In this document: piece after piece, positions 1 to 16,133 of the stretch
Numbering within the stretch: the first letter of the stretch is position 1
Layout: each line of letters begins with the position of its first letter
Source: Candidatus Nitrospira nitrosa
GTDB taxonomy: Bacteria > Nitrospirota > Nitrospiria > Nitrospirales > Nitrospiraceae
Direction: 5' to 3'
DNA: 64,000 nucleotides
NCBI RefSeq assembly: GCF_001458735.1
Contig: NZ_CZQA01000013.1
Span: 1-64,000 of the forward strand
Translations under genes and position numbers: made by a program
Notes under the pieces: model-generated
Databases searched by the model: none
Told to the model about the DNA's origin: nothing
Seen by the model: the letters and a program-made list of their open reading frames with translations, nothing else

Positions 1-60
1 TGAGGTAAGCTCGAAAAAGTGGACGCCTTCAACCTAGAATGAGAGGGCTGGAGGTGTGAG

Positions 61-378
61 ATGGAACAGGTCCCGCGACAGCAGTATACGAAGGAGTTCC
101 GAGAGCAGGCCGTGCGGCTAGTCCTGGAACAGCAGGTGACGATTCCGGAGGCCGCCAGGCGCCTGAGCATGTCGGGCAGGACGCTCGAGCGCTGGGTGGG
201 TCGGGCTCGGCAGGGCCAGCTCACTACGCTGGGAGAGAGCCGACGGCCCGTGACGGAGCTGGAGGCCGAGGTGTCTCGGCTCAAACGGGATCTTGCGGAA
301 GCGCGGATGGAGCGCGACATCTTAAAAAAAGCCACCGCGTACTTTGCCAAGGCGCAGCTGCCCGGTACGCGCTCATGA
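61..378 (+). CDS. IS3-family transposase OrfA
   Basis: A 105-residue DNA-binding subunit of the IS3 transposase. Residues 8-50 form a helix-turn-helix of the transposase-8 type (KEFREQAVRLV, then IPEAARRLSMS). A leucine-zipper-like coiled coil follows at about 65-90, ending in the family's ILKKATAYFAK tail. It overlaps orfB by 4 bp (ATGA at 375-378). An A7 slippery run at 324-330 lies in the phase needed for a -1 shift into orfB, so an OrfAB fusion is expected. It is identical to the OrfA of copy 2. Confidence 0.95.
   Translation: MEQVPRQQYTKEFREQAVRLVLEQQVTIPEAARRLSMSGRTLERWVGRARQGQLTTLGESRRPVTELEAEVSRLKRDLAEARMERDILKKATAYFAKAQLPGTRS
324..330 (+). promoter_or_regulatory. Probable -1 programmed frameshift site
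   Basis: A run of seven A residues is read TTA AAA AAA GCC in the orfA frame. That is the A_AAA_AAA slippery pattern used by IS3 elements. The -1 frame stays open from here into orfB at 375, so slippage would give a full OrfAB transposase. Confidence 0.6.
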
Positions 379-1235
379 GGACGCTGCGTCTCCAGTATCC
401 GTTGACTCTGTTGTGTCGGGTGCTGGAGGTGTCCCGAAGCGGCTACTATGCCTGGCAGCATCGGCGTCCGTCGACACGCGCCCAGGAGAATGCGCGGCTG
501 GAAGTGGCGATTCAGGCGGCACACGTGCGGACCCGACACACGTACGGCCCGGAGCGCCTCCAAGCGGAATTGCGTGAAGACGGCTTTCCAGCTGGGATCG
601 GCCGTATCAAGCGGCTGCGGAAGAAACTGGGCCTGCGCTGCACACCGGTGCGACGGTTCACGATCACCACGGATTCGGCGCATCACCTGCCGGTGGCGGA
701 GAATCGCTTGGCACAAACGTTCACCGCGACACGCCCGAATGAGACCTGGCTCACCGACATCACCTATGTTCCTACAGGGGAAGGGTGGTTGTATGTAGCC
801 GGGGTCAAGGATCTGTATACCTGTGAGGTCGTCGGGTATGCCATGGGGGCCCGGATGACGACGGACTTGGTGCGCCACGCCTTGGGGAACGCGGTCGGGG
901 CGAAACGCCCACGCCCGGGCTTGCTCCACCACTCCGACCGTGGGTCTCAATATTGTGCCCACGACTATCAGGATCAGCTGCGGCAGTTCGGCATGATCCC
1001 CTCCATGAGTCGCAAGGGCAATTGCTATGACAACGCACCGATGGAGAGTTTCTGGGGAACACTGAAAACTGAGCTGGTGCATCACCGACGATATGAGACG
1101 CGGGAGCAGGCTCGGCAAGAGATTACAGCATACATCGAGGTGTTCTACAACCGCCAGCGACGGCATTCCCGGCTGGGGAATCGCTCGCCCGCGGCATTTG
1201 CCCAACGGTGGGCCCGTCAACAGTCGGCGGCGTGA
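375..1235 (+). CDS. IS3-family transposase OrfB (DDE integrase core)
   Basis: A 286-residue catalytic subunit with the retroviral-integrase fold. An N-terminal HTH_21-like segment (residues 40-85) precedes the rve core. The DDE triad is visible as D128 (WLTDITYV), D188 (LLHHSDRGSQY) and E224 (NAPMESFWGTLK), with 35 residues between D188 and E224 as in IS3. It is full length with no stops, so it is probably active, alone or as the OrfAB frameshift product. Copy 2 is identical, which points to recent transposition. Confidence 0.95.
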   Translation: MRTLRLQYPLTLLCRVLEVSRSGYYAWQHRRPSTRAQENARLEVAIQAAHVRTRHTYGPERLQAELREDGFPAGIGRIKRLRKKLGLRCTPVRRFTITTDSAHHLPVAENRLAQTFTATRPNETWLTDITYVPTGEGWLYVAGVKDLYTCEVVGYAMGARMTTDLVRHALGNAVGAKRPRPGLLHHSDRGSQYCAHDYQDQLRQFGMIPSMSRKGNCYDNAPMESFWGTLKTELVHHRRYETREQARQEITAYIEVFYNRQRRHSRLGNRSPAAFAQRWARQQSAA

Positions 1236-1297
1236 GACTGTCATTCATGGCGTCCACTCTTGACAACCGGGGTCAACTCGCCCAAACAAACGTGTCA

Positions 1298-1327
1298 TTG
1301 ACGTGGGTACTATCATTCAAGTAATGT
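1298..1327 (+). promoter_or_regulatory. Candidate promoter for the RsbRD-like gene
   Basis: TTGACG at 1298-1303 and TAATGT at 1322-1327 are separated by 18 bp, just outside the IS right end and about 80 bp upstream of the ATG at 1406. The match to the sigma-70 consensus is only moderate. Confidence 0.25.
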
Positions 1328-1348
1328 CTTTGAAATGGATACTACATT

Positions 1349-1363
1349 GTATACATGGTATAC
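1349..1363. promoter_or_regulatory. Repeated GTATAC palindromes, possible operator
   Basis: Two GTATAC hexamers, each self-palindromic, are separated by ATG between the candidate promoter and the start codon of the next gene. They could be a repressor site; only the symmetry supports this. Confidence 0.2.
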
Positions 1364-1405
1364 ATGCGGTCCTCTCCCTCAACCACTCACAAGAGGAGGT
1401 GCGCT

Positions 1406-1891
1406 ATGTTGGCTGGCCGATTGGTGAGGCTGATCGAGAAGAACTCCGAAAAACTTGCTCGAGAGTTGAGCGAGAAAGTATGGAATTCTCCACGCTGTAG
1501 CGATTTACGAAAAGTCCCACCCGACGAGCTCCAAGCGCGCACCCGCGAAATCTACCAAAACCTAAATAACTGGCTGATGGACATGACCGAGACCGAAATT
1601 GAGCACCGCTACACCGAACTTGGCGCACGGCGAGCCGCACAGGGCGTCGCCTATAGCCATTTCCTCTGGGCGATTACGGCTACCAGAGATCATATGACGG
1701 GCTTTGTCCAACGCGAAGGATTCTCTGATAGCCCGATGGAGCTCCATGGGGAATTGGAACTCCTGCACATCCTCGGTCAGTTTTTTGATCGGGCCTTGTA
1801 CTACACGGCCATGGGGTATGAACAGGAACGGGCCCGCATCGGAACAAACCTTCGCCGCCGCCGGGATGATCATCAGGCAGCACACGCATAG
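1406..1891 (+). CDS. RsbRD N-terminal-like sensor protein
   Basis: A 161-residue all-helical soluble protein resembling the RsbRD N-terminal (globin-like, non-haem) sensor domain found in stressosome proteins. It runs from LVRLIEKNSEKLARELSEKV to the C-terminal helices that contain FDRALYYTAMGYEQER. It carries no STAS or kinase domain, so the sensor module stands alone. The start at 1406 follows AAGAGGAGG with good spacing; an upstream in-frame ATG at 1355 lacks one. It has no partner gene nearby. The family call rests on pattern similarity. Confidence 0.6.
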   Translation: MLAGRLVRLIEKNSEKLARELSEKVWNSPRCSDLRKVPPDELQARTREIYQNLNNWLMDMTETEIEHRYTELGARRAAQGVAYSHFLWAITATRDHMTGFVQREGFSDSPMELHGELELLHILGQFFDRALYYTAMGYEQERARIGTNLRRRRDDHQAAHA

Positions 1892-2285
1892 GCCAGCGCC
1901 AAGGAATAGGCATGAGCGCCCTACTGGCGGGCTCACAGCAAACAGGTGAGCCCGTCTCAGTTCCCTTCACAAACACTTCCTTCCGGAACAACTCACCCTC
2001 CGGATACGACTCAAAAATGTCCCGTAGCACCGTGGAGAATACGCCCGCCGCTTCAGCCACCTCGGAAGAAGTGATCGTCTCCCTTACACCGACAGATTCC
2101 GAAGAGACCGCTAGCGACGTGCCTACTCCTATATCAGGACGATCCATCCTCCCAACAAGCATGCGCAGCACGAGCCCCGCACTCTTCCGGTATAACCCAG
2201 ACCGAACACAAGCAGGGCCCCTCCTCCACCAGTATCGACGGCCATTGAATTTGGGCAAATTTCATCCTAGTACATGCCTGATCAA
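1892..2285. other. Intergenic stretch, no convincing gene
   Basis: This stretch lies between the RsbRD-like gene and the small ORF before the coiled-coil gene. Open frames exist on both strands, but none shows a family motif or a good ribosome binding site. It contains an 8-bp hairpin at 1929-1953. Confidence 0.5.
1929..1953. terminator. Hairpin downstream of the RsbRD-like gene
   Basis: GGGCTCAC and GTGAGCCC form a perfect 8-bp stem around a 9-nt loop, 38 bp after the stop codon. There is no T run after it, so this is a weak or factor-dependent terminator at best. Confidence 0.3.
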
Positions 2286-2546
2286 TTGTGGTACCGTCAC
2301 ATGTTGAACCCCTGGCATCACATCATCCACAGTGGGCATGACCTCATGAAGCACGCGGAGATTATCACCGGCGGCATGGCGTTGAGACCCCCTCCTGCGT
2401 CCCGGATATCCCACAACCTCATTCTTCTTCACCAGAGACAAGCGGCATCTTTGCCTACAAGCCGATCCAGTGATGGTTCGATGCAATCTCTCACTCAGCA
2501 ACCCACGAGCATATCTTCAACCGCATCATCTACAAAGCTGCAGTAA
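2286..2546 (+). CDS. Small uncharacterised ORF, possibly an OmpA-gene relic
   Basis: A TTG-started frame of about 86 residues (begins WYRHMLNPWHH) ends 13 bp before the coiled-coil gene. No family is recognised, and the Ser/Gln-rich tail looks unconstrained. The DNA around its start resembles the start of the OmpA-like gene at 5623: CCTAGTACAT, then about ten bases, then TGTGGYACCGTCA in both places. It may therefore be a decayed copy of that gene's 5' end rather than a working gene. Confidence 0.25.
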   Translation: MWYRHMLNPWHHIIHSGHDLMKHAEIITGGMALRPPPASRISHNLILLHQRQAASLPTSRSSDGSMQSLTQQPTSISSTASSTKLQ

Positions 2547-2559
2547 GGACTGATTAACT

Positions 2560-5391
2560 ATGAGCACACTGGGCAGATGGTTACAACCTCCTCCGAAGGG
2601 CTCGTTGGAGCAACAACACCAAGAGCTTGTCAATCTGCTACGGACCAAGGAACGGGCACTGGAGACGACGTCCCATGATCTGAAAGTCAAGACTGCGGCG
2701 ATGCAGATTCTCGAGCAGAAGGTCATGTCATCGGAGACGCAATTCAACTCAGCCCAACGAGAGCTCGTCTCTCGCGGCGAGCAGATCAAGGCGCTTGAGG
2801 CAGAATTGGCCCTCCGATCGAAACGCGTGTCGGAGATAGAGACTGATGGAGTCGCAGCACAACAACAGGCGGGTGAGCTGAAGTCGATCATTGCGGCCCA
2901 GACGGAAGAGCTCCGTGGAGCTCAGCAAGCTCGCGAGGTCCTGAAGGAAGAGATTCGCGTGCTGCGCGAACATGTTGCTCAGCTCAATGCGGGACTGGCG
3001 GACCGGGATCAAGTCCGAGTCCGCATGGAGAAGCTGGAATCGGCACAAGATCGTGTCCATCTGCTGGAAGTGGAACTGAGTGACAGAGAAGCCGCTCATC
3101 GTCGTAGGATTCAGCAACTCGAACAGCTTCTCACCGAACGAGATCAGCGGATCGATACGTTTGACGTCAGCGCGGCTGCCCACGCGGATGAACTCCGTGC
3201 GGCGCAGCAGGCTAGTCAGTCGGCCGAACAGGCCCGCGAAGTCCTGAAGGAGGAAATCCGCATCCTCCGTGAACAGATCACTCAACTCAACGAAGGCCTC
3301 CCCGCCCGAGAACGCCTTCGCGCTCAAGTCAAAGAGTTGGAGTCGATGCGAGGCCGTGTCCACCAGCTGGAAGTCGAACTGAGTGATCGAGAGGCCGCCC
3401 ATCGCGGCACCATCCAGCAACTCGAACAGGCCCTGACGGAGCGCGACCGTCGCATCAGTGAGTTTGATTCGCTGGCGGCCATCCAGCTGGGCGAACTCCA
3501 CACGGCCCAACAGGTCTCTCAGACCGCCGAACAGACTCGCGAAGTCCTCAAGGAAGAAATCCGCGTCCTCCGGGAACAGATCACCCAACTCAATGAGAGC
3601 CTTGCTCACCAGGACCGACTCCGCGCCCAAGTCAAGAAGCTGGAGGCGACCCAAGACCGTGTCCACCAGCTGGAAGTCGAACTGAGTGATCGAGAGGCCG
3701 CCCATCGCGGCACCATCCAGCAACTCGAACAGGCCCTGACGGAGCGCGACCGTCGCATCGGGGAATTCGATACGCTGGCGGCCGCGCAAGCGGACGAGGT
3801 TCAGGATGCCTTGGAGGCCTGTCGAACGGCGGAGCAGGCCCGTGATGTCCAGAAGGAAGAAATCCGCGTCCTCCGGGAGCATATCGCCCAACAGAACGAG
3901 GAACTCGCCCACCGAGACCGGCTGCGAGCCCAGGTCAAGAAACTGGAGGCAACCCAAGACCGCGTGCACCAGCTGGAAGTCGAACTGAGTGATCGGGAGG
4001 CCGCCCATCGCGGCACCATCCAGCAACTCGAACGGACGCTGGCCGAACGCGATCAGCGGCTTGGGGAGTTTCATGCGAGCGCCGCTGCCCAGACGGACGA
4101 ACTCCGTGGTGCCCAGCAGGCCTGTCAGGCGGCTGAGCAGGCCCGCGAAGTCTCCAAGGAGGAAATCCGCGTCCTCCGTGAGCAGATCGTACGGCTGCAT
4201 GAGGAACTAGCGGATCGGGATCACATCCGAGTCCGCATGGAGAAATTGGAGTCGGCGCAAGATCGTGTCCATCAGCTGGAAGTGGAACTGAGTGACCGGG
4301 AAGCCGCCCATCGCGGCACGCTCCAGCAACTCGAACAGGCCCTTGCGGAGCGCGACCGTCGGATCAGTGAGTTTGATTCGCTGGCGGCCGTGCAAGCGGA
4401 CGAAGTGCAGGATGCGTTGGAAGCCAGTCGAACGGCGGAGCAGGCCCGGGAGGTCATGAAGGAGGAAATCCGCGTCCTCCGTGAGCAGATCGCGCAACTC
4501 AATGAAGGCCTTGCCCACCGCGATCGACTCCGTGCCCGGGTCCAGAAGCTGGAGGCGACCCAGGACCGTGTGCATCAGCTGGAAGTCGAGCTGAGTGATC
4601 GGGAAGCCGCCCACCGCGGCACCATCCAACAACTCGAACAGGCTCTCACGGAGCGAGACCGTCGGATCGATGAGCTGGTGCCGGCCGCCCACCTCCTGCA
4701 CGAGAAAGAAGCTGCCATTAAAGAATGGGAACGAACCCACGTACGCGCGATGCAGGACCTCGAAGCTGAGGCGACAAAGCTTCAAGAATCCTGTACAGTG
4801 CAGGATCAACTCCGGGCGCAACATCAACTCGACGAGCAACAGCTAGAGGAACGCGACACCAGGATTGCGAACCTCCAGCGTGAGCTGAAGGACTTGCAGG
4901 CGGAACGGCAAGCCCTCCGCAAGGAGGTGCAAGTCATTCCTGAAAAGGAGGAGCAGATCGATCGCTTGCAAAAGCGGTTAAAAGAACTGCGTGCAGCACT
5001 GAAGGCAACGCCTTCATCAGCCATCGTTCCTCCCCAGCCGCATCGCCAGAGGGAAGCTGCGCCACACTCCTCGCAACCCAAAGTCAGCAAACCCGTCGCC
5101 CCGGCGCGCCAGAATGGGACGGGACAACAGTCCCCGGTCGGACAACAGCCGAAGAGCGGCAAGCCCATTCAGCCAGACGATCTGAAAAAGATCGACGGGA
5201 TTGGGCCTGGCCTTGCCGCTACGCTCCAGAAGCTGGGCACCCGCACGTTTATCCAAATCGCGCGATGGAAACCAGAAGACATCGAGAAAATCGCCAAGAA
5301 GCTTGCGACTGATCCGGAGCGGATTAAACGTGAGAATTGGATTGCCGGAGCGAAGAAACAGCACTACGAAAAGTACAAGGAACGGCTTTGA
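2560..5391 (+). CDS. Long coiled-coil protein with six 101-residue repeats and C-terminal HhH domain
   Basis: A 943-residue, almost wholly helical, Gln/Glu/Arg-rich protein. Its centre consists of six copies of a 101-residue unit (303 bp spacing exactly), each containing EEIRVLREQI, then HQLEVELSDREAAHR, then QQLEQALTERDRRI. The Pro-rich linker at about 815-865 leads to a C-terminal helix-hairpin-helix domain (LKKIDGIGPGLAATLQKLG). The paralogue at 6559 shares the N-terminal LRTKE and QILEQKVMSSET segments and the tail, but starts with a membrane helix that is missing here, so this copy is probably soluble. A structural or scaffolding role is likely; the HhH tail suggests nucleic acid or protein docking. 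RBS TAAGGA precedes the ATG. Confidence 0.8.
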   Translation: MSTLGRWLQPPPKGSLEQQHQELVNLLRTKERALETTSHDLKVKTAAMQILEQKVMSSETQFNSAQRELVSRGEQIKALEAELALRSKRVSEIETDGVAAQQQAGELKSIIAAQTEELRGAQQAREVLKEEIRVLREHVAQLNAGLADRDQVRVRMEKLESAQDRVHLLEVELSDREAAHRRRIQQLEQLLTERDQRIDTFDVSAAAHADELRAAQQASQSAEQAREVLKEEIRILREQITQLNEGLPARERLRAQVKELESMRGRVHQLEVELSDREAAHRGTIQQLEQALTERDRRISEFDSLAAIQLGELHTAQQVSQTAEQTREVLKEEIRVLREQITQLNESLAHQDRLRAQVKKLEATQDRVHQLEVELSDREAAHRGTIQQLEQALTERDRRIGEFDTLAAAQADEVQDALEACRTAEQARDVQKEEIRVLREHIAQQNEELAHRDRLRAQVKKLEATQDRVHQLEVELSDREAAHRGTIQQLERTLAERDQRLGEFHASAAAQTDELRGAQQACQAAEQAREVSKEEIRVLREQIVRLHEELADRDHIRVRMEKLESAQDRVHQLEVELSDREAAHRGTLQQLEQALAERDRRISEFDSLAAVQADEVQDALEASRTAEQAREVMKEEIRVLREQIAQLNEGLAHRDRLRARVQKLEATQDRVHQLEVELSDREAAHRGTIQQLEQALTERDRRIDELVPAAHLLHEKEAAIKEWERTHVRAMQDLEAEATKLQESCTVQDQLRAQHQLDEQQLEERDTRIANLQRELKDLQAERQALRKEVQVIPEKEEQIDRLQKRLKELRAALKATPSSAIVPPQPHRQREAAPHSSQPKVSKPVAPARQNGTGQQSPVGQQPKSGKPIQPDDLKKIDGIGPGLAATLQKLGTRTFIQIARWKPEDIEKIAKKLATDPERIKRENWIAGAKKQHYEKYKERL
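3058..4875 (+). repeat. Tandem 303-bp in-gene repeat array (six units)
   Basis: The codons for (V/H)HQLEVELSDREAAHR begin at about 3055, 3358, 3661, 3964, 4267 and 4570, a constant 303-bp period. Units at 3358 and 3661 are identical for about 95 bp, which indicates recent duplication or gene conversion. The array will be prone to copy-number change by recombination. The right border is approximate. Confidence 0.85.
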
Positions 5392-5622
5392 CCTTCGCTG
5401 ACGATGAAGAGTCGTCGGTCGTGACTCCGATACGAGTGATTCCTTACGCGGTCTAAAAACCATATAATTCGTCTACCGAACTATATGCGGTGATGGCCGA
5501 TTGACCTCAGTTTCAACTAGAAGCATGCCGAAGCATCTAGCTCCATGGAGACCAGTTCGAACCCGTCTCCTTGTCGTTGACCTGCTTGACTGAACATCTC
5601 CCACCTAGTACATAGTCGTGAC

Positions 5623-6555
5623 ATGTGGCACCGTCAGGACCCGCACAGCAACGACCAGCCCCAGGTTGAACGGGACGAGTTCACGAGGCGTGCAAGAATT
5701 CTTGCTGTCGGTATCGCTGCGCTGATGCTGCTTGCCGTGGTGTGCATCCCCCGACATCTCCCTTCACAACCACGGACCACAGCTATCACCCCAGCTTCGC
5801 TTTATATCAGCTTCGAACAAAACACCTTGATACTTCGGGGCTCACTCCCCACCCAACGGAGCAAGACCTCGATTCTTGAGCAGGCACATACGCTGTATGC
5901 AAAAAAGGGAACCCGTGTGACTGACCAGTTCACCGTCGACGCACAAGTCGGTTCAGCTGCATGGGTGGACACCATTCCACAGCTGCTCCCGATTTTGGGC
6001 TGGATGACTGAACGTGGCTCTATCATTATTGACGGCCATTCACTGGTTGTGACCGGTCAGGTCGCGAGTGCTCGCGAAAAAGCCGACGTGCTCCAGGTGA
6101 TGGCTCCGGCGGTACGAGCAGGGTTAAAAATTGAGGACCGCGTGATGGTCGCACAGGCGACAGCCTCGTCCCCCGCTTCCGTTTCACTCACGGCCCTCCA
6201 GTTGTCACTGAATCAGGTCCTTGCGAAATCCTCGATCGAGTTCGAACCAGACAGCGCCACCGTCACGGCCAAAGGTCAGGCGGTTCTCGATCACATTGTC
6301 GTCCTCCTTCGAAAAGCTCCGACCGCACCGATTGAGATCGCAAGTCATACCGATATCGGTGGTGCGGCCGAGCACAATTTACGGTTGAGCCGGCAGCGCG
6401 CCGATGCGGTGAAGCAGTACTTGACCGACCAGGGGCTCACCAATCCGTTTACCACCATCGGCTATGGATCGACGCGTCCTCTGTCAAATAGAAAATATCA
6501 ACCGGGTCTCCCGCAGAATCAACGGATCGAGTTGCTCATGATAAGGACCACGTGA
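5623..6555 (+). CDS. OmpA-family peptidoglycan-binding membrane protein
   Basis: A 310-residue inner-membrane-anchored or envelope protein. One transmembrane helix at about residues 26-44 (ILAVGIAALMLLAVV) is followed by a BON-like region at about 60-170 and a C-terminal OmpA/MotB domain from about 205. That domain shows IEFEPDSATVTAKGQAVLD, the TDIGGAAEHNLRLSRQRADAV peptidoglycan-binding loop and GYGSTRP. It should bind the diaminopimelate of the cell wall. It sits between the two coiled-coil paralogues, 3 bp ahead of the second, so it is probably co-transcribed with it. Confidence 0.85.
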   Translation: MWHRQDPHSNDQPQVERDEFTRRARILAVGIAALMLLAVVCIPRHLPSQPRTTAITPASLYISFEQNTLILRGSLPTQRSKTSILEQAHTLYAKKGTRVTDQFTVDAQVGSAAWVDTIPQLLPILGWMTERGSIIIDGHSLVVTGQVASAREKADVLQVMAPAVRAGLKIEDRVMVAQATASSPASVSLTALQLSLNQVLAKSSIEFEPDSATVTAKGQAVLDHIVVLLRKAPTAPIEIASHTDIGGAAEHNLRLSRQRADAVKQYLTDQGLTNPFTTIGYGSTRPLSNRKYQPGLPQNQRIELLMIRTT

Positions 6556-6558
6556 TCT

Positions 6559-8493
6559 ATGATGACGCTGATTAGCCAAATGATCGGATGTCTCCTCATT
6601 GCAGCCGGAATTGGGTTTGGAGTCGGCTGGTGGTTGCGGCAAATTCCCAAACGCTCACAAGAACAGCCCTCTCATGACGCCACAGGTCTGTTACGGACCA
6701 AAGAGCAGGCCCTGGATGCGTTGACGCACGATCTGAAGGTCAAAACGTCGGCCGTGCAGATTCTTGAACAAAAAGTCATGTCGTCGGAGACCATGCATTC
6801 CTCCGTGCAACGTGAGCTGATCGCCCGCAATGAGCGGCTCAAAGCCCTTGAGGCAGAACTCACAACCCGATCAAAGCAACTGACGATCTCGGAAGGAGAA
6901 GGAGCCACGGCTCGCCGACGCGTGAGTGAAATAGAGTCGATTCTTGCGACCCAGACTCATGAACTCAGAGGAGCTCAACAGACCTGTCGAAACGCCGAGC
7001 AAGCCCGTGAAATCATGGAACGGGAAGTGGGGGTCCTGCGCGAGCATATTGCTCAACTCAACGAAGGCTTGGCCGATCGCGAGCGTCTCCGCACCCAGAT
7101 CAAGCAGCTGGAGACGGCACAAGACCGCGTCCACCAACTTGAAGTCGAGCTCAGTGATCGCGAAGCCGCCCATCGCGGCATTATCCAGCAACTCGAACGT
7201 GCGCTCACCGAACGTGATCAACGAATTGAGGCGTTCGATAGCCAGGCCTCCACCCAAGCCGAAGACCTACGCGCTGCTCGCCAAATCTCCCAGAGCGCCG
7301 AGCAGGCCCGGGAAGTCATGGAACGGGAAGTGAGTGCCCTGCGAGACCATATTGCCCAACTCAACGAAGGCTTGGCCGACCGCGAGCGGCTCCGCAGCCA
7401 GGTCAAGCAACTCGAGACGGCACAAGATCGGATCCACCAGCTCGAAGTGGAGTTGAGCGATCGCGAGGCCGCCCATCGTACCACCATCCAGCAACTTGAA
7501 CGTACGCTCGCCGAGCGCGATCAACGGATTGGGGAGGCTGATGCGAATGCCGCTGCTCACATGGACGAACTTCGAGATGCCCAGCAGGCCTCTCAGTCGG
7601 CTGAGCAAGCCCGGGAGGTCCTCAAGGAAGAGATCCGCGTCCTCCGTGATCACATTGCGCAACTGAATGAAGGCTTGGCCGACCGCGAGCGGCTCCGCAG
7701 CCAGGTCAAGCAACTCGAGACGGCACAAGATCGGATCCACCAGCTCGAAGTGGAGTTGAGCGATCGCGAGGCCGCCCATCGCACCACCATCCAGCAACTT
7801 GAGCAGTCTCTCGTCGACCGTGACCGGCGAATTGAAGAGCTGGTACCGATGCCCCACCTCCTGCGTGAGAAGGAAGCGGTAATCAAGGAGTGGGAACGTA
7901 CCCACGCACAGACCGTCAAGACCCTGGAACGCGAGACCGCAACGCTCCTCGAACAGAATCTGGTCTACAAAGACCTACAGGCACAACATCAGCTTGAGGA
8001 GCAACGGGTACAGGAGCGAGACAAACAACTTGCCGACCTCCAGCGCGAGCTTCAAGAGCTCCACACGGAACGCGATACTCTCCGGAAAGAAGTGCAGGGT
8101 ATTCCGGAAAAAGACGAGCAGATCGAACGCCTACAAAAACGGCTCAAAGAACTGCGCGCGACCCTGCGCACTACGCCACCTGCTCCGATAACGGCGTCCG
8201 CCCCACAGTCACGCCAGCATGATGCTGAGACTCCTCCTCTCAGTAGCCCTCCCAAAGGCAGCAAGCCCAAGCAAAGCGATGACCTCAAGAAGATCCAGGG
8301 TATCGGTCCAGTCTTTGCTGAGACGCTGCACAAGCTCGGCACCCGGACGTTTATTCAAATCGCTCGATGGAAACCCGAGGATGTGGAGAAAATCGCCAAG
8401 AAACTCGCGACCGATCCCGAGCGGATTAAACGGGAGAATTGGATCGCGGGAGCCAAAAAGCAACACTACGACAAATATAAGGAACGGCTCTAG
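6559..8493 (+). CDS. Membrane-anchored coiled-coil protein with three 101-residue repeats and C-terminal HhH domain
   Basis: A 644-residue paralogue of the protein at 2560. An N-terminal membrane helix (LISQMIGCLLIAAGIGFGVG, residues 4-23) is followed by QILEQKVMSSET, three 303-bp-spaced units with HQLEVELSDREAAHR, a Pro/Ser linker and an HhH tail (KKIQGIGPVFAETLHKLGTRT). The last 60 residues are almost identical to those of the paralogue. It starts 3 bp after the OmpA-like gene. Together they suggest an envelope-linked filament or scaffold: a wall-binding partner plus an inner-membrane coil. The molecular role is unknown. Confidence 0.8.
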   Translation: MMTLISQMIGCLLIAAGIGFGVGWWLRQIPKRSQEQPSHDATGLLRTKEQALDALTHDLKVKTSAVQILEQKVMSSETMHSSVQRELIARNERLKALEAELTTRSKQLTISEGEGATARRRVSEIESILATQTHELRGAQQTCRNAEQAREIMEREVGVLREHIAQLNEGLADRERLRTQIKQLETAQDRVHQLEVELSDREAAHRGIIQQLERALTERDQRIEAFDSQASTQAEDLRAARQISQSAEQAREVMEREVSALRDHIAQLNEGLADRERLRSQVKQLETAQDRIHQLEVELSDREAAHRTTIQQLERTLAERDQRIGEADANAAAHMDELRDAQQASQSAEQAREVLKEEIRVLRDHIAQLNEGLADRERLRSQVKQLETAQDRIHQLEVELSDREAAHRTTIQQLEQSLVDRDRRIEELVPMPHLLREKEAVIKEWERTHAQTVKTLERETATLLEQNLVYKDLQAQHQLEEQRVQERDKQLADLQRELQELHTERDTLRKEVQGIPEKDEQIERLQKRLKELRATLRTTPPAPITASAPQSRQHDAETPPLSSPPKGSKPKQSDDLKKIQGIGPVFAETLHKLGTRTFIQIARWKPEDVEKIAKKLATDPERIKRENWIAGAKKQHYDKYKERL

Positions 8494-8608
8494 CTAGGCC
8501 ACCAGCCCCAATATCGGCCTGCGACAGGCGAACGGCCCATCCTACTTTTCCCTGCCGTTGACTCCTTCGTTCACCCTGACTACAATCGCGCAACGAGGTT
8601 TATCGTTC

Positions 8609-11600
8609 GTGGCATCTTCTTTCGTTCACCTTCATCTCCATACACAATTCAGCCTGCTCGACGGCGCCAATCAGATCGATCCACTGGTCCGTCAAATCAA
8701 AACATTCAATCAGCCGGCTGTCGCCATGACCGACCATGGCAACATGTTCGGCGCCGTCGAATTTTACCGCAAGGCCAAAGAGGTAGGGGTCAAACCCATT
8801 ATCGGCTGTGAAGCCTATATGGCGTTAGGCAGTCGCCATGCAAAGAAAGATAGCGGGCTTGCCCATAACGATTACTACCATCTGATTCTGCTCGCGAGAA
8901 ATCTCGCCGGTTACCAGAACCTCATCAAGCTGGTCAGTAAGGGATATCTTGAAGGGTTCTACTATAAGCCGCGTATCGACAAGGAATTATTGAAGCTCCA
9001 TCATGACGGCATCATTGCGCTGTCAGGTTGCTTGAGCGGTGAAATCCCCTATCTCATCGGCCAAAAAGATATGGATGGCGCCATGGCGGTGGCGGGAGAA
9101 TTTCAGGAGATTTTCGGGAAGGATCATTTCTATCTTGAAGTGCAGGCGAACGGACTTGATCATCAGCGTATCGCGAATGCCGGCCTCGTGGAAATTCACA
9201 AGAAACTCGGGATCCCGATGGCCGGGACCAACGATTGTCACTACCTGAAGAAGGAAGATGCGCGTCCCCATGAGCTCATGCTGTGCCTGCAAACCGGGAA
9301 AACCGTCGGCGATCCACACCGGATGAAGTTCGACACGGACCAGCTGTACGTCAAATCCACTGAAGAGATCGCTCCGGCGTTTGCAGAGTTTCCAGGCGCA
9401 GTGACGAATACCTGCCGTATTGCGGATCATTGCGCACTCGACCTTCCGCTCAACAAGACCTACCTCCCGCAGTACCGTATCCCTGATGGATTCAAGGACC
9501 GTGAGTCCTATCTCGAGCATCTTGCACTGGCGGGTCTACAAGCACGACTCAAGGAGCGTCCCAGTCGCATAGCATCGGCTGTCTATGACCAACGGCTTCG
9601 TGAAGAGCTCATGGTCATCTGTTCGATGGGGTTTGCCGGATACTTCCTCATCGTCTGGGATATCATTCGTTTCGCCCGATCACGAGGCATTCCGGTAGGA
9701 CCGGGGCGAGGCTCGGCAGCCGGAAGTCTTGTCGCCTATGCGCTTCGGATTACCGATCTTGATCCGCTGGTGTACACCCTCTTATTTGAGCGATTCTTGA
9801 ACCCTGAACGGGTCTCCCTGCCCGATATCGATATGGACTTCTGCATGGATCGCCGGGGAGAGGTCATCAACTATGTGGTGGAGAAATACGGGACCGACCA
9901 TGTCGCTCAGATCATTACCTTCGGGACGCTCGGAGCGAAAGCCGCCATCCGCGATGTCGGACGTGTGCTGGAGATGCCCTATGCAGACGCGGACAAGGTC
10001 GCAAAGCTCATTCCCAACCAGTTGAACATCTCCCTCCAGCAAGCCCTGGAGACCGAACCTCGCTTACGCGAGCTGGTCGACACTGATCCTAAAGTGAAAG
10101 AACTGATGACCAACGCGCAGTCCCTTGAAGGCCTCGCGCGCCATGCCTCGACCCATGCGGCCGGCATCGTGATTTCTGAAGGCCCCCTCACCGACCATGT
10201 GCCCCTCTACAAGGGGGCCAACGATGAAGTGGTGACCCAGTACTCGATGGGAGACGTCGAGAAAATCGGTCTTGTGAAATTCGATTTTCTCGGACTCAAG
10301 ACCCTCACGATGATTCGCCGTGCCGAGACCTTAATCAACGAGACGCATCCCGGCAGCCCCCCACTCGTCATTGATCAGGTTTCGTTTGACGACCCAGCCA
10401 CGTTTGCGCTGTTAAGCTCGGGGAAAACCACTGGCTTGTTTCAGTTGGAAAGCTCCGGAATGCGCGATCTGCTCACGGGACTCAAGCCGGACCGATTCGA
10501 AGATATCATCGCCATTATTGCGCTCTATCGACCAGGCCCCATGGATCTCATCCCGGACTTCATCAAGCGAAAACAGGGCAAGGTCACCATTACCTATGAA
10601 GTTCCTGAATTGGAACCAATCCTCAAGGATACCTACGGGGTGATCGTCTACCAGGAACAAGTGATGGCGATTGCCAACAAGGTCGCCGGCTTTTCGTTGG
10701 GACAAGCCGATATTCTTCGTCGTGCCATGGGGAAGAAGAAGCCCGAGGAAATGGAAAAGCTGCGCGTCAAATTCATTGACGGGGCCACAGAGAACAAGAT
10801 TCCCGAGAAAAAAGCGGAGAAGTTATACGAGTTGATTCAAAAGTTCGCCGGATATGGGTTCAACAAATCACATGCCGCCGCCTATGCGGTGGTCTGTTAT
10901 CAAACAGGATACCTCAAGGCGCACTATCCGACCGAGTTTATGGCGGCCCTCATGACGACCGACATGGGCAATCAAGACAAGCTGGTCGGCTATTTTACGG
11001 AATGTCGCGATTTGGGGATCAAAGTGTTGGGCCCCGATGTGAACGCCAGTCAAAAACACTTCGCCGTCGCCGAGGACGTCATCCGATTCGGGTTGGCCGC
11101 CATTAAGAATGTCGGTGAAGGCGCCGTGGAGTCGGTCCTGGAGGTGAGGACCCAGACGGGTTCCTTCACCTCCTTCTTTGACTTCTGCCGACGAGTCGAT
11201 CTCCACAAGGTCAACAAGCGGATGTTGGAAGGCCTGATCAAGGCCGGGGCCTTCGATTCCACCGGGGCCAGGCGATCACAGCTTGTCGCCGTGCTGGACC
11301 AAGCGGTGGAGGAAGGAGCCGCGGCTCAGCGCGAGCGTGACTGCGGTCAGATCAGTATCTTCGGGGAGGAGATGAACGGGCACGGGATGTCCGCGCCTCT
11401 CCCGATTCCACCATTGCCGTCGATCGCAGAATGGGATCAAGCCCAACGATTGAAATACGAGCGCGAACTCACCGGGTTTTATATCTCCGCCCACCCATTG
11501 ACGCGGTACGAAACCGTGCTGGGTGCCTTGTCCACCACGACGACGACAGGACTGAAAGATTGCGCGGACGGGAGTGAGGTCAAGATCTGCGGGGTCATCG

Positions 11601-12073
11601 CCGCCGTCAAATCCATGCTGACGAAGAAGGGCGATCGCATGGCCTATCTGACGATCGAAGACCTGCAAGGCACGACGGAAATCATCGTGTTCCCGGACTT
11701 GTTTAAGACGGCCGGTGAGATGATGATACCTGAACAGATCGTGCGCATCACCGGGACAATCGATCGCGGCGACAAAGGGACCAAGATTCGTGGCAGCAAA
11801 ATTGAACCGTTAGCTGAGGTTCAAGCTCAATCCATCAAACGAATCCGCATTCGGCTCACGGATCACCCTGACGTGCGAGAACAATTACCTCGCTTGGCCG
11901 ATGTCTTCCGCCGGCATCCAGGCAGCACCACCGTCTCCATGCTGTTCCGGACAGAGGCGCGTTTGGAAGCTGAGACCAATCCGCTCCCGAATGTGACGAT
12001 CTGCCCCAGCGACCATTTCATGTCGGATGTCGAGGAAGTACTAGGCAAAGGGGCCCTTTCTTTGCTATCGTAG
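8609..12073 (+). CDS. dnaE: DNA polymerase III subunit alpha
   Basis: The replicative polymerase catalytic subunit, 1154 residues from the GTG at 8609 (RBS CGAGGT, 9 bp spacing), the usual DnaE1 length. The N-terminal PHP domain begins FVHLHLHTQFSLLDG. The polymerase core shows GPGRGSAAGS and the catalytic acidic motif PDIDMDF at residues 405-411. A helix-hairpin-helix segment and an OB-fold (VKICGVIAAVKSMLTKKG) follow near the C-terminus. An upstream in-frame ATG at 8558 would add 17 residues of no recognisable homology. accA lies about 60 bp downstream. Confidence 0.97.
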   Translation: MASSFVHLHLHTQFSLLDGANQIDPLVRQIKTFNQPAVAMTDHGNMFGAVEFYRKAKEVGVKPIIGCEAYMALGSRHAKKDSGLAHNDYYHLILLARNLAGYQNLIKLVSKGYLEGFYYKPRIDKELLKLHHDGIIALSGCLSGEIPYLIGQKDMDGAMAVAGEFQEIFGKDHFYLEVQANGLDHQRIANAGLVEIHKKLGIPMAGTNDCHYLKKEDARPHELMLCLQTGKTVGDPHRMKFDTDQLYVKSTEEIAPAFAEFPGAVTNTCRIADHCALDLPLNKTYLPQYRIPDGFKDRESYLEHLALAGLQARLKERPSRIASAVYDQRLREELMVICSMGFAGYFLIVWDIIRFARSRGIPVGPGRGSAAGSLVAYALRITDLDPLVYTLLFERFLNPERVSLPDIDMDFCMDRRGEVINYVVEKYGTDHVAQIITFGTLGAKAAIRDVGRVLEMPYADADKVAKLIPNQLNISLQQALETEPRLRELVDTDPKVKELMTNAQSLEGLARHASTHAAGIVISEGPLTDHVPLYKGANDEVVTQYSMGDVEKIGLVKFDFLGLKTLTMIRRAETLINETHPGSPPLVIDQVSFDDPATFALLSSGKTTGLFQLESSGMRDLLTGLKPDRFEDIIAIIALYRPGPMDLIPDFIKRKQGKVTITYEVPELEPILKDTYGVIVYQEQVMAIANKVAGFSLGQADILRRAMGKKKPEEMEKLRVKFIDGATENKIPEKKAEKLYELIQKFAGYGFNKSHAAAYAVVCYQTGYLKAHYPTEFMAALMTTDMGNQDKLVGYFTECRDLGIKVLGPDVNASQKHFAVAEDVIRFGLAAIKNVGEGAVESVLEVRTQTGSFTSFFDFCRRVDLHKVNKRMLEGLIKAGAFDSTGARRSQLVAVLDQAVEEGAAAQRERDCGQISIFGEEMNGHGMSAPLPIPPLPSIAEWDQAQRLKYERELTGFYISAHPLTRYETVLGALSTTTTTGLKDCADGSEVKICGVIAAVKSMLTKKGDRMAYLTIEDLQGTTEIIVFPDLFKTAGEMMIPEQIVRITGTIDRGDKGTKIRGSKIEPLAEVQAQSIKRIRIRLTDHPDVREQLPRLADVFRRHPGSTTVSMLFRTEARLEAETNPLPNVTICPSDHFMSDVEEVLGKGALSLLS

Positions 12074-12131
12074 GAACCAGTATTATTGGGAATCAACCAC
12101 GATCGGTCCACCATCACTGCGAAGGAATCGA

Positions 12132-13112
12132 TTGACGTCCATGCGAGACTACCTCGACTTTGAAAAACCCCTCCGCGAGATTGAAGAGAAAATCGAGAAA
12201 CTCTCCGCTGCGGCAAGCAGCGGAAAAGCGAGCTCCCAAAACGATCTTCGAAAGCTTCGGGCCAAGCTGGCGCAGGCTGAGCACGAGCTGTATAAGAACC
12301 TGAGTCCCTGGCAGAGAACGCAGCTCGCTCGTCACCCGCAACGACCCAGCACACTCGACTACATTCGCGAACTGACGCGAGACTTTCTTGAGCTTCATGG
12401 CGACCGGGCCTATGGAGATGACCGGGCCATCGTCGGCGGGTTTGCCCGGTTTAACGACCGTCCCGTGATGATGATCGGCCATCAGAAGGGCAAGACGCTC
12501 AAGGAACGCATGCAACGAAATTTCGGGATGCCCAATCCCGAAGGATACCGGAAAGCCCTCCGGCTCATGAAGCTGGCGGAAAAGTTCAACCGTCCGATTC
12601 TGACCTTTATCGATACGCCCGGAGCCTACCCTGGAATCGGCGCCGAGGAGCGCGGACAAGCTGAAGCCATTGCGCGGAACTTGTTCGTCATGTCTCGGTT
12701 GACCGTCCCCATCATCTCGGTCGTCATCGGCGAAGGTGGGAGCGGAGGAGCCTTGGCGCTCGGCGTTGCGGACCGTGTCCTGATGCTGGAGCATTCGGTT
12801 TATTCGGTCATTTCCCCGGAAGGATGTGCCGCCATTCTGTGGGACAGCCCGGAAAAAGTTCAGACCGCCGCCTCCGCGCTGAAAATGACCGCACAGGACC
12901 TGCTGGAACTTGGCGTGATCGACACGATCGTGCCGGAACCCCTGGGAGGAGCCCACCGCGAACCGGATGCCATGTACGATCTCGTCGGAAAGACGCTCAC
13001 GAACCAACTGTTTGAGTTACTTGACGTGCCGGTCGAACAACTCGTCCCACAACGAGAGCTCAAATACCGGAAGATAGGAGCCGTCACCGGCCTCCTCGTC
13101 GAACAGGCGTAA
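12132..13112 (+). CDS. accA: Acetyl-CoA carboxylase carboxyltransferase subunit alpha
   Basis: The alpha half of the carboxyltransferase that makes malonyl-CoA for fatty acid synthesis. It is 326 residues, near the typical 320. The crotonase-like core is clear: GDRAYGDDRAIVGG, DTPGAYPGIGAEERGQAEAIA and GEGGSGGALALGVADRVLMLEHSVYSVISPEG, the oxyanion-hole region. The start is unsure. TTG at 12132 has AAGGA 5 bp upstream, while ATG at 12141 (MRDYLDFEKP, the family's common N-terminus) has it 14 bp away. It abuts the convergent ferritin-like gene with no gap. Confidence 0.96.
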   Translation: MTSMRDYLDFEKPLREIEEKIEKLSAAASSGKASSQNDLRKLRAKLAQAEHELYKNLSPWQRTQLARHPQRPSTLDYIRELTRDFLELHGDRAYGDDRAIVGGFARFNDRPVMMIGHQKGKTLKERMQRNFGMPNPEGYRKALRLMKLAEKFNRPILTFIDTPGAYPGIGAEERGQAEAIARNLFVMSRLTVPIISVVIGEGGSGGALALGVADRVLMLEHSVYSVISPEGCAAILWDSPEKVQTAASALKMTAQDLLELGVIDTIVPEPLGGAHREPDAMYDLVGKTLTNQLFELLDVPVEQLVPQRELKYRKIGAVTGLLVEQA

Positions 13113-13730
13113 TCACCCCTTCAGCGTTGCCTTCTTGTCCAGTAGTCCCGTCGTGACCAATCTTCGCTCGATCGCCTCCAGAATGTGGGTGGTCAAACTC
13201 TGTCGAAACGGATCGAGCACCGGCGCTTCCACGTAGCGATCGACGGTTCGCGGCAGTCTCCGCCACCAACCCCGTGCCGACGCGCGGGCCTGTTCAGCGC
13301 CCTCAGGACTTCCGCCGAGAATACGTCGAACCTCTCGTTCGAAAAAGCCGACATGAACAATTTCGTCTTCAAGAATCGAGGCAAGATCAGGTCGCAACGT
13401 CAACAAGAGGCGAGCGAATTCCAACCCCAACGACTCATATCCGTAGATCTGCACCGCCAACGCCGGCCACTGTCGTGGAACAGAAGGCAGACGATCACGT
13501 TCACGAGGCTGTCGACCGATCAGCGACTCAAACTGGGCCAGATGCTTTTGCTCATCTTCCTCATGCTTTCTGAGAAAGGTGTACACGTTCGGAGGCACAT
13601 TCTGCAGTTGCGCTGATCGAACCGTCCACAGAGCCATCGCCTCGGCCTTGAGAAACCGTTCGAGCAAGGCGGCTTCACACTCCGGTGAGAGCCGAATGGA
13701 TATGGGCGACTCCGATACCATGACGACCAT
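13113..13730 (-). CDS. Ferritin-like diiron-domain protein
   Basis: A 205-residue four-helix protein of the ferritin-like superfamily. Carboxylate and His ligands in the expected spacing are visible: E in LKAEAMALW, then EEDEQKH, then YESLGLEFARLLL, then EDEIVHVGFFERE. It may be an oxygen- or peroxide-reactive diiron enzyme; the specific reaction cannot be told. The start may be the ATG at 13730 or the one at 13721 (MVSES). It is convergent with accA, the two stop codons being adjacent. Confidence 0.7.
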   Translation of the reverse strand: MVVMVSESPISIRLSPECEAALLERFLKAEAMALWTVRSAQLQNVPPNVYTFLRKHEEDEQKHLAQFESLIGRQPRERDRLPSVPRQWPALAVQIYGYESLGLEFARLLLTLRPDLASILEDEIVHVGFFEREVRRILGGSPEGAEQARASARGWWRRLPRTVDRYVEAPVLDPFRQSLTTHILEAIERRLVTTGLLDKKATLKG

Positions 13731-13932
13731 ATGGTACGCAAAGCGGACCCATGTTGTCCAAGCGCCGTTTACCGAATCACTAAAGGGGTTGACTCACACC
13801 CCCAATCTGTGTACATCCTTAGCATCTTGCGAGATTCAGCGATCTTTGAGGCACGACGCCCACTCCCCCTCGAACCAACAGCGCATCCAGGCACGAGTGC
13901 TTCTGGTCACACTAACCCATGAGGCGAGGCCT

Positions 13933-14646
13933 ATGACAAACCCTAGCAGCACAGTCTCAGGCGTCTTTCAAGGGATCACCGTATGCCTGCTCGCGGGAGC
14001 ACTCTTTGCGGAGGCTGGCTGCGTCAGCCAACGCGCGTATGAACAGATCAAAGCGGAAGCGCAGGAACATACACGAGCACTTGAATCGGTTCGAGACGAA
14101 GTGAAGGAACTTGACCAGCAAATCGCCGGGCTGCAAGCCGCCAATCGGCATGAAGACGCGAGCACCGCTGAACTACGCGCAGCCGTTCAGCGTGAAGAAG
14201 AACAGTTGCCGGTAATGAGGCAACGAGCGGAGGCGATGCTCACCTCGCTCAAGGGACAAGTCGCGGCGTTGATGAACCAGAGTTGGAGCCTCGCGCGAAA
14301 AATTGCGGACCTTCGTCATGAAAGCGCGTCCTTGCAGACTGCGGCCGCACAGTATAAACAGGAGCGGGAAGAGGGCCAAGCCGCTTTGACGGTGGCTGCG
14401 GATGAGGAAGAATCGAGCCTCACTCCGGCCATGACAGCCGAACCCTCCACGCCATCAGAGTCGCCGACGCTGGAACCCCTTGTGGCACAACTCCCGGAAC
14501 CAACGGCTGCTTCACCGAGTCGGTCGGTCTCCGCACCATCGATCCCCTCCCCCTCGATGAATGCGGACCCCCCTGAGGTAGACAACTCATGGATCGGCAT
14601 GATCTTCAGCTGGCTCACCACATTCTGGAATTGGCTCCTCAGCTAA
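13933..14646 (+). CDS. Secreted or membrane-anchored coiled-coil envelope protein
   Basis: A 237-residue protein starting at the ATG at 13933, behind GAGGCGAGG. A hydrophobic leader (GITVCLLAGALFAEAGC) resembles a lipoprotein signal with a non-canonical lipobox (E-A-G before Cys). A coiled coil rich in Glu/Gln spans about residues 32-150, followed by a Ser/Pro/Glu linker and a C-terminal hydrophobic tail (WIGMIFSWLTTFWNWLL). The longer frame from 13579 overlaps the opposing gene and is rejected. No function is recognised. Confidence 0.65.
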   Translation: MTNPSSTVSGVFQGITVCLLAGALFAEAGCVSQRAYEQIKAEAQEHTRALESVRDEVKELDQQIAGLQAANRHEDASTAELRAAVQREEEQLPVMRQRAEAMLTSLKGQVAALMNQSWSLARKIADLRHESASLQTAAAQYKQEREEGQAALTVAADEEESSLTPAMTAEPSTPSESPTLEPLVAQLPEPTAASPSRSVSAPSIPSPSMNADPPEVDNSWIGMIFSWLTTFWNWLLS

Positions 14647-14662
14647 GCGCAGGCCCCTGCGC
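14647..14662. terminator. Bidirectional hairpin between convergent genes
   Basis: GCGCAG and CTGCGC form a perfect stem around a 4-nt loop, directly after the coiled-coil gene stop and just before the end of the opposing flavoprotein gene. There is no long T run, so termination strength is uncertain. Confidence 0.4.
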
Positions 14663-14675
14663 GTTATCAATCCCG

Positions 14676-15920
14676 TTATCCGCACGGTGATCGCCCCACC
14701 TGAGTCTTGCTCCATTGTGCAGCCTTGTCTCCGGCAAGACGTCCCGTCGCGAGACAAGCTGTAAGCAGATAGCCTCCCGTGGGGGCCTCCCAATCCAGCA
14801 TTTCTCCTGCACAGAACACTCCCGGGAGAGAACGGACCATCAGGCTGTCATCAAGAGCCGTGAATGAGAGACCGCCGGCCGTACTGATGGCCTCCTCGAT
14901 CGGCCGAGGTGCCGTCAGCATCAGCGGAAGAGCTTTGATCGCAGCAGCCAAGCGAACGGGATCACCCAACACCTCCCTCGGCACGGCCTCGCGCAACAGA
15001 CCAGCCTTCACACCGGTCATCCCGGCGCACCGCTTGAGATGCGTGGCAACCGTCCGTTTTCCACGGGGCCGAGAAAGATCGCTTACGAGCTGCTTCAGGG
15101 TTCGATCAGGAGCGAGATCGAGCCTCAGAGTCGCCAGGCCCTCGGCAGTGATCACATCGCGCACGGTAGCTGACACTATATATATGATTCCGCCTTCCAC
15201 ACCATTCGCGGTAACGACGAATTCTCCCATATGACGGATGGTCGAACCGTCCAGGGCGTTACTCACCAGCGCCACAGTCTTGACGGGATATCCAGCGAAC
15301 CTGGCACGAAAATGTTGGCTCCACCGAACATCAAACCCACAATTGGCAGGTTGCAATGGTGCGATCGGCACATGCCGTTCTGACAAGATCTTCACCCACC
15401 CAGCATCAGAACCAAGTTGGGGCCAGCTGCCTCCGCCCAAGGCCAACACCACCGCATCCGCCTGCACCAGAGATATTCCGTCCGCGGTGAGAAAACGAAG
15501 CCTTCCCTGCTCATCCCAGCCACACCATCGATGTCGCACATGAAACCGTACACCATTCAGCCGTAACCGACGCAGCCATGCGCGCAACAGTGGCGCTGCG
15601 TTCATATCAACAGGGAAGATCCGTCCGGAACTGCCGACAAACGTTTCTACTCCAAGTTCATGGGCCCAGGCCCGCAGAGCCGTCGGAGGAAATGCTGTAA
15701 TCGCCGGTTCGATGAATGCCCGGCGCGTCCCATAGCGAGAGAGGAAGGAGTCCATCGGCTCCGAATGCGTGAGATTCAGGCCGCCTTTTCCCGCCAATAG
15801 AAATTTTCGCCCTACAGACGGCATCGAGTCATAGACCTCCACCCCGACGCCGGTCCTAACGGCTGCTTCAGCAGCCATGAGGCCTGCCGCCCCACCTCCG
15901 ATGATGACAATTGATCCCAT
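14676..15920 (-). CDS. HI0933-type NAD(P)/FAD-dependent flavoprotein
   Basis: A 414-residue oxidoreductase of the HI0933/YhiN family (TIGR03862-like). The N-terminal FAD-binding GGGAAGLMAAEAA is followed by the family signature GRKFLLAGKGGLNLTHSE and the NAD-like VLALGGGSWPQLGSDA. The C-terminal FAD loop is CAGEMLDWEAPTGGYLLTACLATG. The start is placed at the ATG at 15920 (MGSIVIIGG), because the dinucleotide fold begins there. An upstream TTG at 15986 would add an unrelated 22 residues. The substrate is unknown. Confidence 0.88.
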   Translation of the reverse strand: MGSIVIIGGGAAGLMAAEAAVRTGVGVEVYDSMPSVGRKFLLAGKGGLNLTHSEPMDSFLSRYGTRRAFIEPAITAFPPTALRAWAHELGVETFVGSSGRIFPVDMNAAPLLRAWLRRLRLNGVRFHVRHRWCGWDEQGRLRFLTADGISLVQADAVVLALGGGSWPQLGSDAGWVKILSERHVPIAPLQPANCGFDVRWSQHFRARFAGYPVKTVALVSNALDGSTIRHMGEFVVTANGVEGGIIYIVSATVRDVITAEGLATLRLDLAPDRTLKQLVSDLSRPRGKRTVATHLKRCAGMTGVKAGLLREAVPREVLGDPVRLAAAIKALPLMLTAPRPIEEAISTAGGLSFTALDDSLMVRSLPGVFCAGEMLDWEAPTGGYLLTACLATGRLAGDKAAQWSKTQVGRSPCG

Positions 15921-16133
15921 GGCTCCCTTCAGATTCTCACAAACTAAAGACACTTCACTCGGACAGTCTATTACCTGTATTGACAAGAAATCATTTCTTT
16001 ATTCTCGCCCAGCCTATTCATGAGGGTTCGTAAGGCTACGGCTCCATGATGAGCAACGGCAGGGGCCCCCTGAGAGGCCGACAGGCTTCCGTACAGAAAC
16101 GGGGTGGCATGTGGAGACCGGAAGCGACGGGCA

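Follow-up and report, generated by a model that had tools for sequence, protein, structure and literature searches.

A predicted peptidoglycan-binding OmpA-like protein and two coiled-coil proteins built of 101-residue repeats are encoded together upstream of dnaE in Nitrospira

The protein Rv0899 of Mycobacterium tuberculosis, also named ArfA or OmpATb, has a membrane anchor followed by BON and OmpA domains, and both this layout and its recognition of peptidoglycan have been published (PMC6151718). A role in ammonia secretion or acid adaptation has been reported for it in M. tuberculosis. In a different context, protein-O of a photosynthetic RC-LH1 complex carries a domain like the tail described below, whose function was considered obscure by the authors of the structure (PMC12079452). 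Here we compare with these systems a locus found in the window, as we call the whole stretch of 64,000 nucleotides of DNA that was analysed. The window belongs to a Nitrospira genome of 4.42 Mb; as this genome has two amoA copies, it is that of a comammox Nitrospira.

The locus contains three intact ORFs (Table 1) in the order CC1, OmpA-like gene and CC2, followed by dnaE. The end of CC1 and the start of the OmpA-like gene are 231 bp apart, and the latter is separated from CC2 by 3 bp. According to a first-pass annotation of this DNA, two coil paralogues sharing a 303-bp unit flank an OmpA-type gene, and only the second has a membrane anchor; our analysis confirmed the ORFs, the repeats (six copies in CC1, 2906-4720, and three in CC2, 6980-7885, in exact 303-bp register) and the anchor, a helix at about residues 4-26 of CC2 that has no counterpart in CC1. 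The same annotation had recognised no name for either coil family and, in fact, Pfam and NCBIfam searches gave no named family, and a literature search for the CC1/OmpA/CC2 gene set found no match. The coil proteins are a lineage-specific family without a name, and the OmpA-CC2 gene pair is undescribed. CC1 orthologues with an MSTLxRWLQ start are present in about 20 Nitrospira loci, and the order CC1-OmpA-CC2-dnaE, usually with accA as well, was found wherever the contig was long enough (20 named Nitrospira loci). The three genes are under purifying selection, which is strongest in the tail. Promoter and terminator scans of the locus stayed at chance level, and an Rfam search of window positions 1-16000 gave no match. 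On its left the locus is bounded by an IS3-type transposase ORF pair (61-1235), and a conserved protein of 161 to 178 aa, encoded here at 1355-1891 and with no match in Pfam or NCBIfam, lies upstream of the locus in most Nitrospira.

Table 1. Features of the locus in window coordinates; dN/dS values are against a Nitrospira relative.
Feature	Coordinates	Strand	Evidence
Tentative remnant of a second OmpA 5' end before CC1	2266..2440	+	Short DNA match to the start of the window OmpA gene, weak alone
CC1, soluble coiled-coil protein, 943 aa, C-terminal HhH-like tail	2560..5391	+	Intact ORF; dN/dS 0.095; orthologues
CC1 coil repeats, six of 101 residues	2905..4722	+	Repeat match, periodicity, copy number varying between species
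CC1 tail domain, 78 aa	5155..5388	+	86% identical to CC2 tail
OmpA-like protein, 310 aa: N-terminal membrane helix, BON-like domain, OmpA peptidoglycan-binding domain	5623..6555	+	Intact ORF; PF00691; AF2/Foldseek; dN/dS 0.16
OmpA membrane helix with invariant Cys41	5692..5760	+	Alignments
OmpA C-terminal domain, Asp244 and Arg259 kept	6187..6540	+	PF00691 match, alignments
CC2, membrane-anchored coiled-coil protein, 644 aa, tail as in CC1	6559..8493	+	Intact ORF, homologues; dN/dS 0.17
CC2 membrane helix with invariant Cys11 and GxxxGW, uncharged before, R/K after (predicted N-out/C-in)	6568..6636	+	Alignments
CC2 coil repeats, three of 101 residues	6979..7887	+	Repeat match, periodicity
CC2 tail domain	8257..8490	+	Homology searches; identity to CC1 tail; dN/dS 0.034 (tail alone)

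The copies of the 303-bp unit are 68-78% identical in nucleotides to a reference copy. Hydrophobicity in the repeat arrays recurs every 3.48 residues (101/29), a signal reached by none of 500 shuffles, so that a repeat accommodates 14 heptads plus a three-residue stammer. With a rise of 0.1485 nm per residue, and assuming a continuous coil, a repeat would measure ~15 nm, CC1 ~119 nm and CC2 ~74 nm. Among the Nitrospira loci the number of repeats ranges from about 3 to 7 in CC1 and from 1 to 4 in CC2. Repeats of close species match by position, and in distant species the repeats of one gene are more alike than those of different species, suggesting that the repeats turn over. The CC2 frame is broken in four loci (L046, L049, L051 and L057), and in L057 it continues into dnaE as a single ORF of 1394 aa; these breaks are either decay or MAG assembly errors in the repeats. 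We have also considered an SMC- or Rad50-like function and rejected it, as only the coil regions and composition matched, far below cut-offs, and ATP-binding heads were not found with Pfam and NCBIfam.

The OmpA-like protein matches PF00691 with 64.6 bits, above the gathering score of 27.2, and the two residues listed in Table 1 for its C-terminal domain are those that contact diaminopimelate/peptidoglycan in this family. Its AF2 model (pLDDT 73.8) has Rv0899 (2l26) as best Foldseek match (E 3.9e-13), followed by isolated OmpA and BON domains such as the 2kgs BON domain (E 1.4e-6), and by this model the protein has the domain order and fold of Rv0899/ArfA (membrane anchor, BON, OmpA). The NCBIfam profile of the ArfA N-domain (NF051434) scored 43.7 bits, below its cut-off of 81. 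The peptidoglycan-binding Asp is replaced by Thr, Gly or Glu in the OmpA of L040, L103 and L051, suggesting that wall binding may be dispensable in these species.

The membrane helices are the best conserved stretches of both OmpA and CC2, with Gly30, Cys41 and Arg44 invariant in OmpA (Cys41 in 14/14 and 17/17 aligned sequences) and Cys11, Gly19, Gly23 and Trp24 in CC2. The OmpA helix is preceded by K/R, and in all 31 CC2 sequences there is no net charge before the helix and a conserved R/K directly after it. According to the positive-inside rule, these flanking charges suggest that OmpA is oriented N-in/C-out and CC2 N-out/C-in. Given these topologies, Cys11 and Cys41 would both be near the periplasmic face, and the OmpA and CC2 helices probably pair, possibly via these cysteines, either as paired helices or by a disulfide. 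A different arrangement, in which the coils lie in the periplasm and bridge the envelope or act as spacers in it, would agree with the periplasmic location of the OmpA partner and with the existence of periplasmic coiled-coil proteins such as CrvA. We consider it very improbable, because it runs against the charges around the CC2 helix, CC1 has the same coil and tail with neither a signal nor a membrane helix, the relatives of the tail are cytoplasmic, and the lengths estimated above for the two coils exceed any periplasm.

The tails of CC1 and CC2 share 67 of 78 residues, so that the "near-identical" of the first-pass annotation was slightly generous but the shared tail itself stands. Its assignment as a helix-hairpin-helix (HhH) domain fared less well, since the scores against PF14520 and PF00633 are below gathering (HHH_5, 19.4 bits vs 27, E 0.0015). 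The AF2 model, built from 23 close sequences, was poor (pLDDT 61.4) and the fold search returned no meaningful match. By sequence search, the tail is homologous to the protein-O domain of the RC-LH1 complex (8yy9_O, E 2.4e-9) and to complex I subunit E (9wqv_a), and it matches PRK12373, PRK12278 and PhaH in NCBIfam, i.e., extensions of NuoE, ribosomal L21 and phasin. These relatives are cytoplasmic proteins or domains. In 198 genomes of the phylum the tail profile was convincing only in Nitrospiraceae, while other families of the phylum gave weak matches (E above 1e-9) to the A2 profile. Among plasmids, the tail was matched only in Rhizobium and Shinella.

HhH domains often bind DNA, and the tail could be such a domain, in which case the module would be a tether across the inner membrane between nucleoid and wall. 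The weak HHH_5 similarity and the basic composition of the tail (19 K/R vs 11 D/E) speak for this possibility. However, the HhH scores do not reach the Pfam cut-offs, and the nearest solved structures and NCBIfam matches are those named above. As the homologous domain of protein-O and complex I subunit E is of obscure function, DNA binding by the tail should not be assumed. Furthermore, chromosome tethering, which the first-pass annotation had suggested looking for, is not indicated by homology, the close relatives of the tail being found on respiratory and photosynthetic subunits, and we regard a DNA-binding tail as unlikely.

Every CC2 locus for which upstream sequence is available has OmpA as the gene immediately before CC2, which amounts to more than 30 loci of several genera. 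A family-wide search with the OmpA-like protein retrieved full-length orthologues in other Nitrospiraceae genera, the most distant with 28% identity to the window protein, and directly downstream of each inspected orthologue there is a protein of ~390-440 aa with a CC2-type membrane helix, coil and tail. The pairs of these genera come without CC1 and without repeat expansion, and close full-length homologues of the coil proteins were found only in the genus Nitrospira. The ancestral unit is the two-gene OmpA-CC2 pair, present across the family Nitrospiraceae, and CC1 is a later duplicate restricted to Nitrospira. The scaffold set of wall, inner-membrane and cytoplasmic parts that had been proposed from the window alone is thus borne out in one respect, as the link between coil and OmpA is real and old and the layout fits the predicted topology and the homology, but the trio is not obligatory. 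Many Nitrospira are without the whole system. A strict link of the module to ammonia oxidation was rejected, because the module occurs both in genomes that have amoA and in genomes that lack it, and several amoA genomes do not carry it. In two genomes without the module (G030:C22, L128, and G172:C41, L133), tandem large lipoprotein-like genes occupy the purH-dnaE interval upstream of dnaE, interspersed with several copies of the 5' end of dnaE (about 27-173 bp, 88-96% identical), a pattern that suggests recurrent insertion at the start of dnaE. In L089 and L091 (genus g19) there is a second adjacent OmpA copy, then a CC2-like gene cut to ~115 aa in which the membrane helix is kept and the tail was not found; this appears to be an independent duplication with an outcome opposite to CC1.

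A second, divergent pair elsewhere in the genome repeats the design. At G000:C1:1434559-1437131 (L058 3560-6132), the OmpA-like protein is 191 aa long and has its own membrane helix; the gene that follows encodes 663 aa, with a membrane helix at the N-terminus, then a hydrophilic stretch and the tail in three copies. In this second pair, too, a Cys is found at the corresponding end of both helices. In 16 of the 18 second- and third-site loci fetched, OmpA is directly before the tail gene (or beside it on a cut contig), usually overlapping it by a few bases; a third divergent pair, whose tail has stops, is present in G132. By our reading of the search table, 20 of 49 good Nitrospira genomes have both sites, 10 site 1 only, none site 2 only and 19 neither, and the two sites co-occur (Fisher p 2e-6, with related genomes not being independent).

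Regarding the origin of CC1, pieces of OmpA (N- or C-terminal, often with stops) are recognisable in 14 of 24 loci shortly before CC1, at a distance of up to a few hundred bases, compared to 3 of 480 shuffled controls with weaker matches; the window is outside these 14 loci with clear remnants. Moreover, in an alignment of the CC1 and CC2 5' ends the only gap, of 54 nt (18 codons), covers the CC2 membrane helix. Remnants and gap together indicate that CC1 is the product of a tandem OmpA-CC2 duplication in which the upstream OmpA decayed and the helix was lost. CC1 is found directly before dnaE, with neither OmpA nor CC2, in G132 and G003; G152 is alike, and CC1 is probably also alone in G013, where the contig starts inside the gene. 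Single homologues with no OmpA neighbour, which the first-pass annotation took to make a shared role unlikely, therefore exist for CC1 and not for CC2. The CC1-only genomes and the loss of the Asp in some species show that, in part of the genus, the soluble coil has persisted longer than the wall-binding arm. CC1 could have become a soluble structural protein in its own right, unconnected today with OmpA and CC2, which would be an ancestral pair in decay; these genomes, the lost Asp and the CC2 frame breaks of some MAGs speak for this reading. We find this rather unlikely given the clear purifying selection on OmpA and CC2 in the window lineage, the identity of 86% that the CC1 and CC2 tails still keep despite saturated silent sites, and the retention of a second OmpA-tail pair in the CC1-only genomes G132, G152 and G013. 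In G003, no OmpA-tail pair was detected anywhere in the genome.

The best explanation, to which we give about an even chance, is that OmpA and CC2 form a wall-to-cytoplasm coupler with a cytoplasmic coil of variable length, CC1 being a soluble derivative. It builds on the observed gene order, homology, conservation, duplication, decay and coil periodicity. Points that speak against it are the survival of CC1 alone in G003, the many Nitrospira without the system, the Asp lost in L040, L103 and L051, and the CC2 frame breaks. The OmpA-like protein would be held in the inner membrane by its single N-terminal helix and grip the periplasmic peptidoglycan with its OmpA domain, and CC2, translated right after it, would cross the inner membrane once and extend into the cytoplasm as a long parallel coiled coil ending in a small docking domain. 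With their helices probably paired, possibly through the Cys near the periplasmic face, the two proteins would link the wall to a strut in the cytoplasm, and the count of 101-residue repeats would determine how long this strut is. Within Nitrospira, tandem duplication of the pair was accompanied by decay of the upstream OmpA and by loss of the helix from the upstream coil, which became the soluble CC1. CC1 most likely shares the tail receptor of CC2 and, where both are kept, may co-assemble with it through the shared repeats.

If the coupling is real, it would provide a testable physical link between cell wall and cytoplasm in nitrifying bacteria. More tentatively, and with confidence well short of even, it may represent an undescribed kind of wall-to-cytoplasm linker, with a peptidoglycan anchor, perhaps disulfide-paired helices, a strut tuned in 15-nm steps and a tail docking on a common receptor. 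Furthermore, the domain that the tail shares with protein-O and complex I subunit E gains a second, independent context, in which it is always paired with a membrane-anchored wall-binder, and this could help to find its binding partner. With its exact loss of the membrane helix, the duplication is also a clean natural example of a membrane protein turned soluble.

Among known systems, Rv0899/ArfA/OmpATb (2l26) is the best whole-chain structural match of the OmpA-like protein and shares with it the single N-terminal anchor, the central BON-like domain and the C-terminal OmpA domain, although identity in the structural alignment is 25% and it is here that a coiled-coil gene adjoins OmpA. Protein-O of the Dinoroseobacter shibae RC-LH1 (8yy9_O) resembles CC2 in having a membrane segment and a C-terminal domain homologous to the tail, but it has two membrane helices, neither a coiled coil nor an OmpA partner, and is part of a photosynthetic complex. 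The C-terminal extensions of alphaproteobacterial NuoE, ribosomal L21 and phasin PhaH are likewise homologous to the tail, but are joined to unrelated soluble proteins. Other coiled-coil scaffolds of bacteria, crescentin-like ones among them, are by description similar in their long rod and short conserved N-terminus, whereas the 101-residue repeats, the tail domain and the paired OmpA gene set the present proteins apart. Finally, the proposed linker would be similar in principle to the linkers that join structures outside the cell to an internal skeleton.
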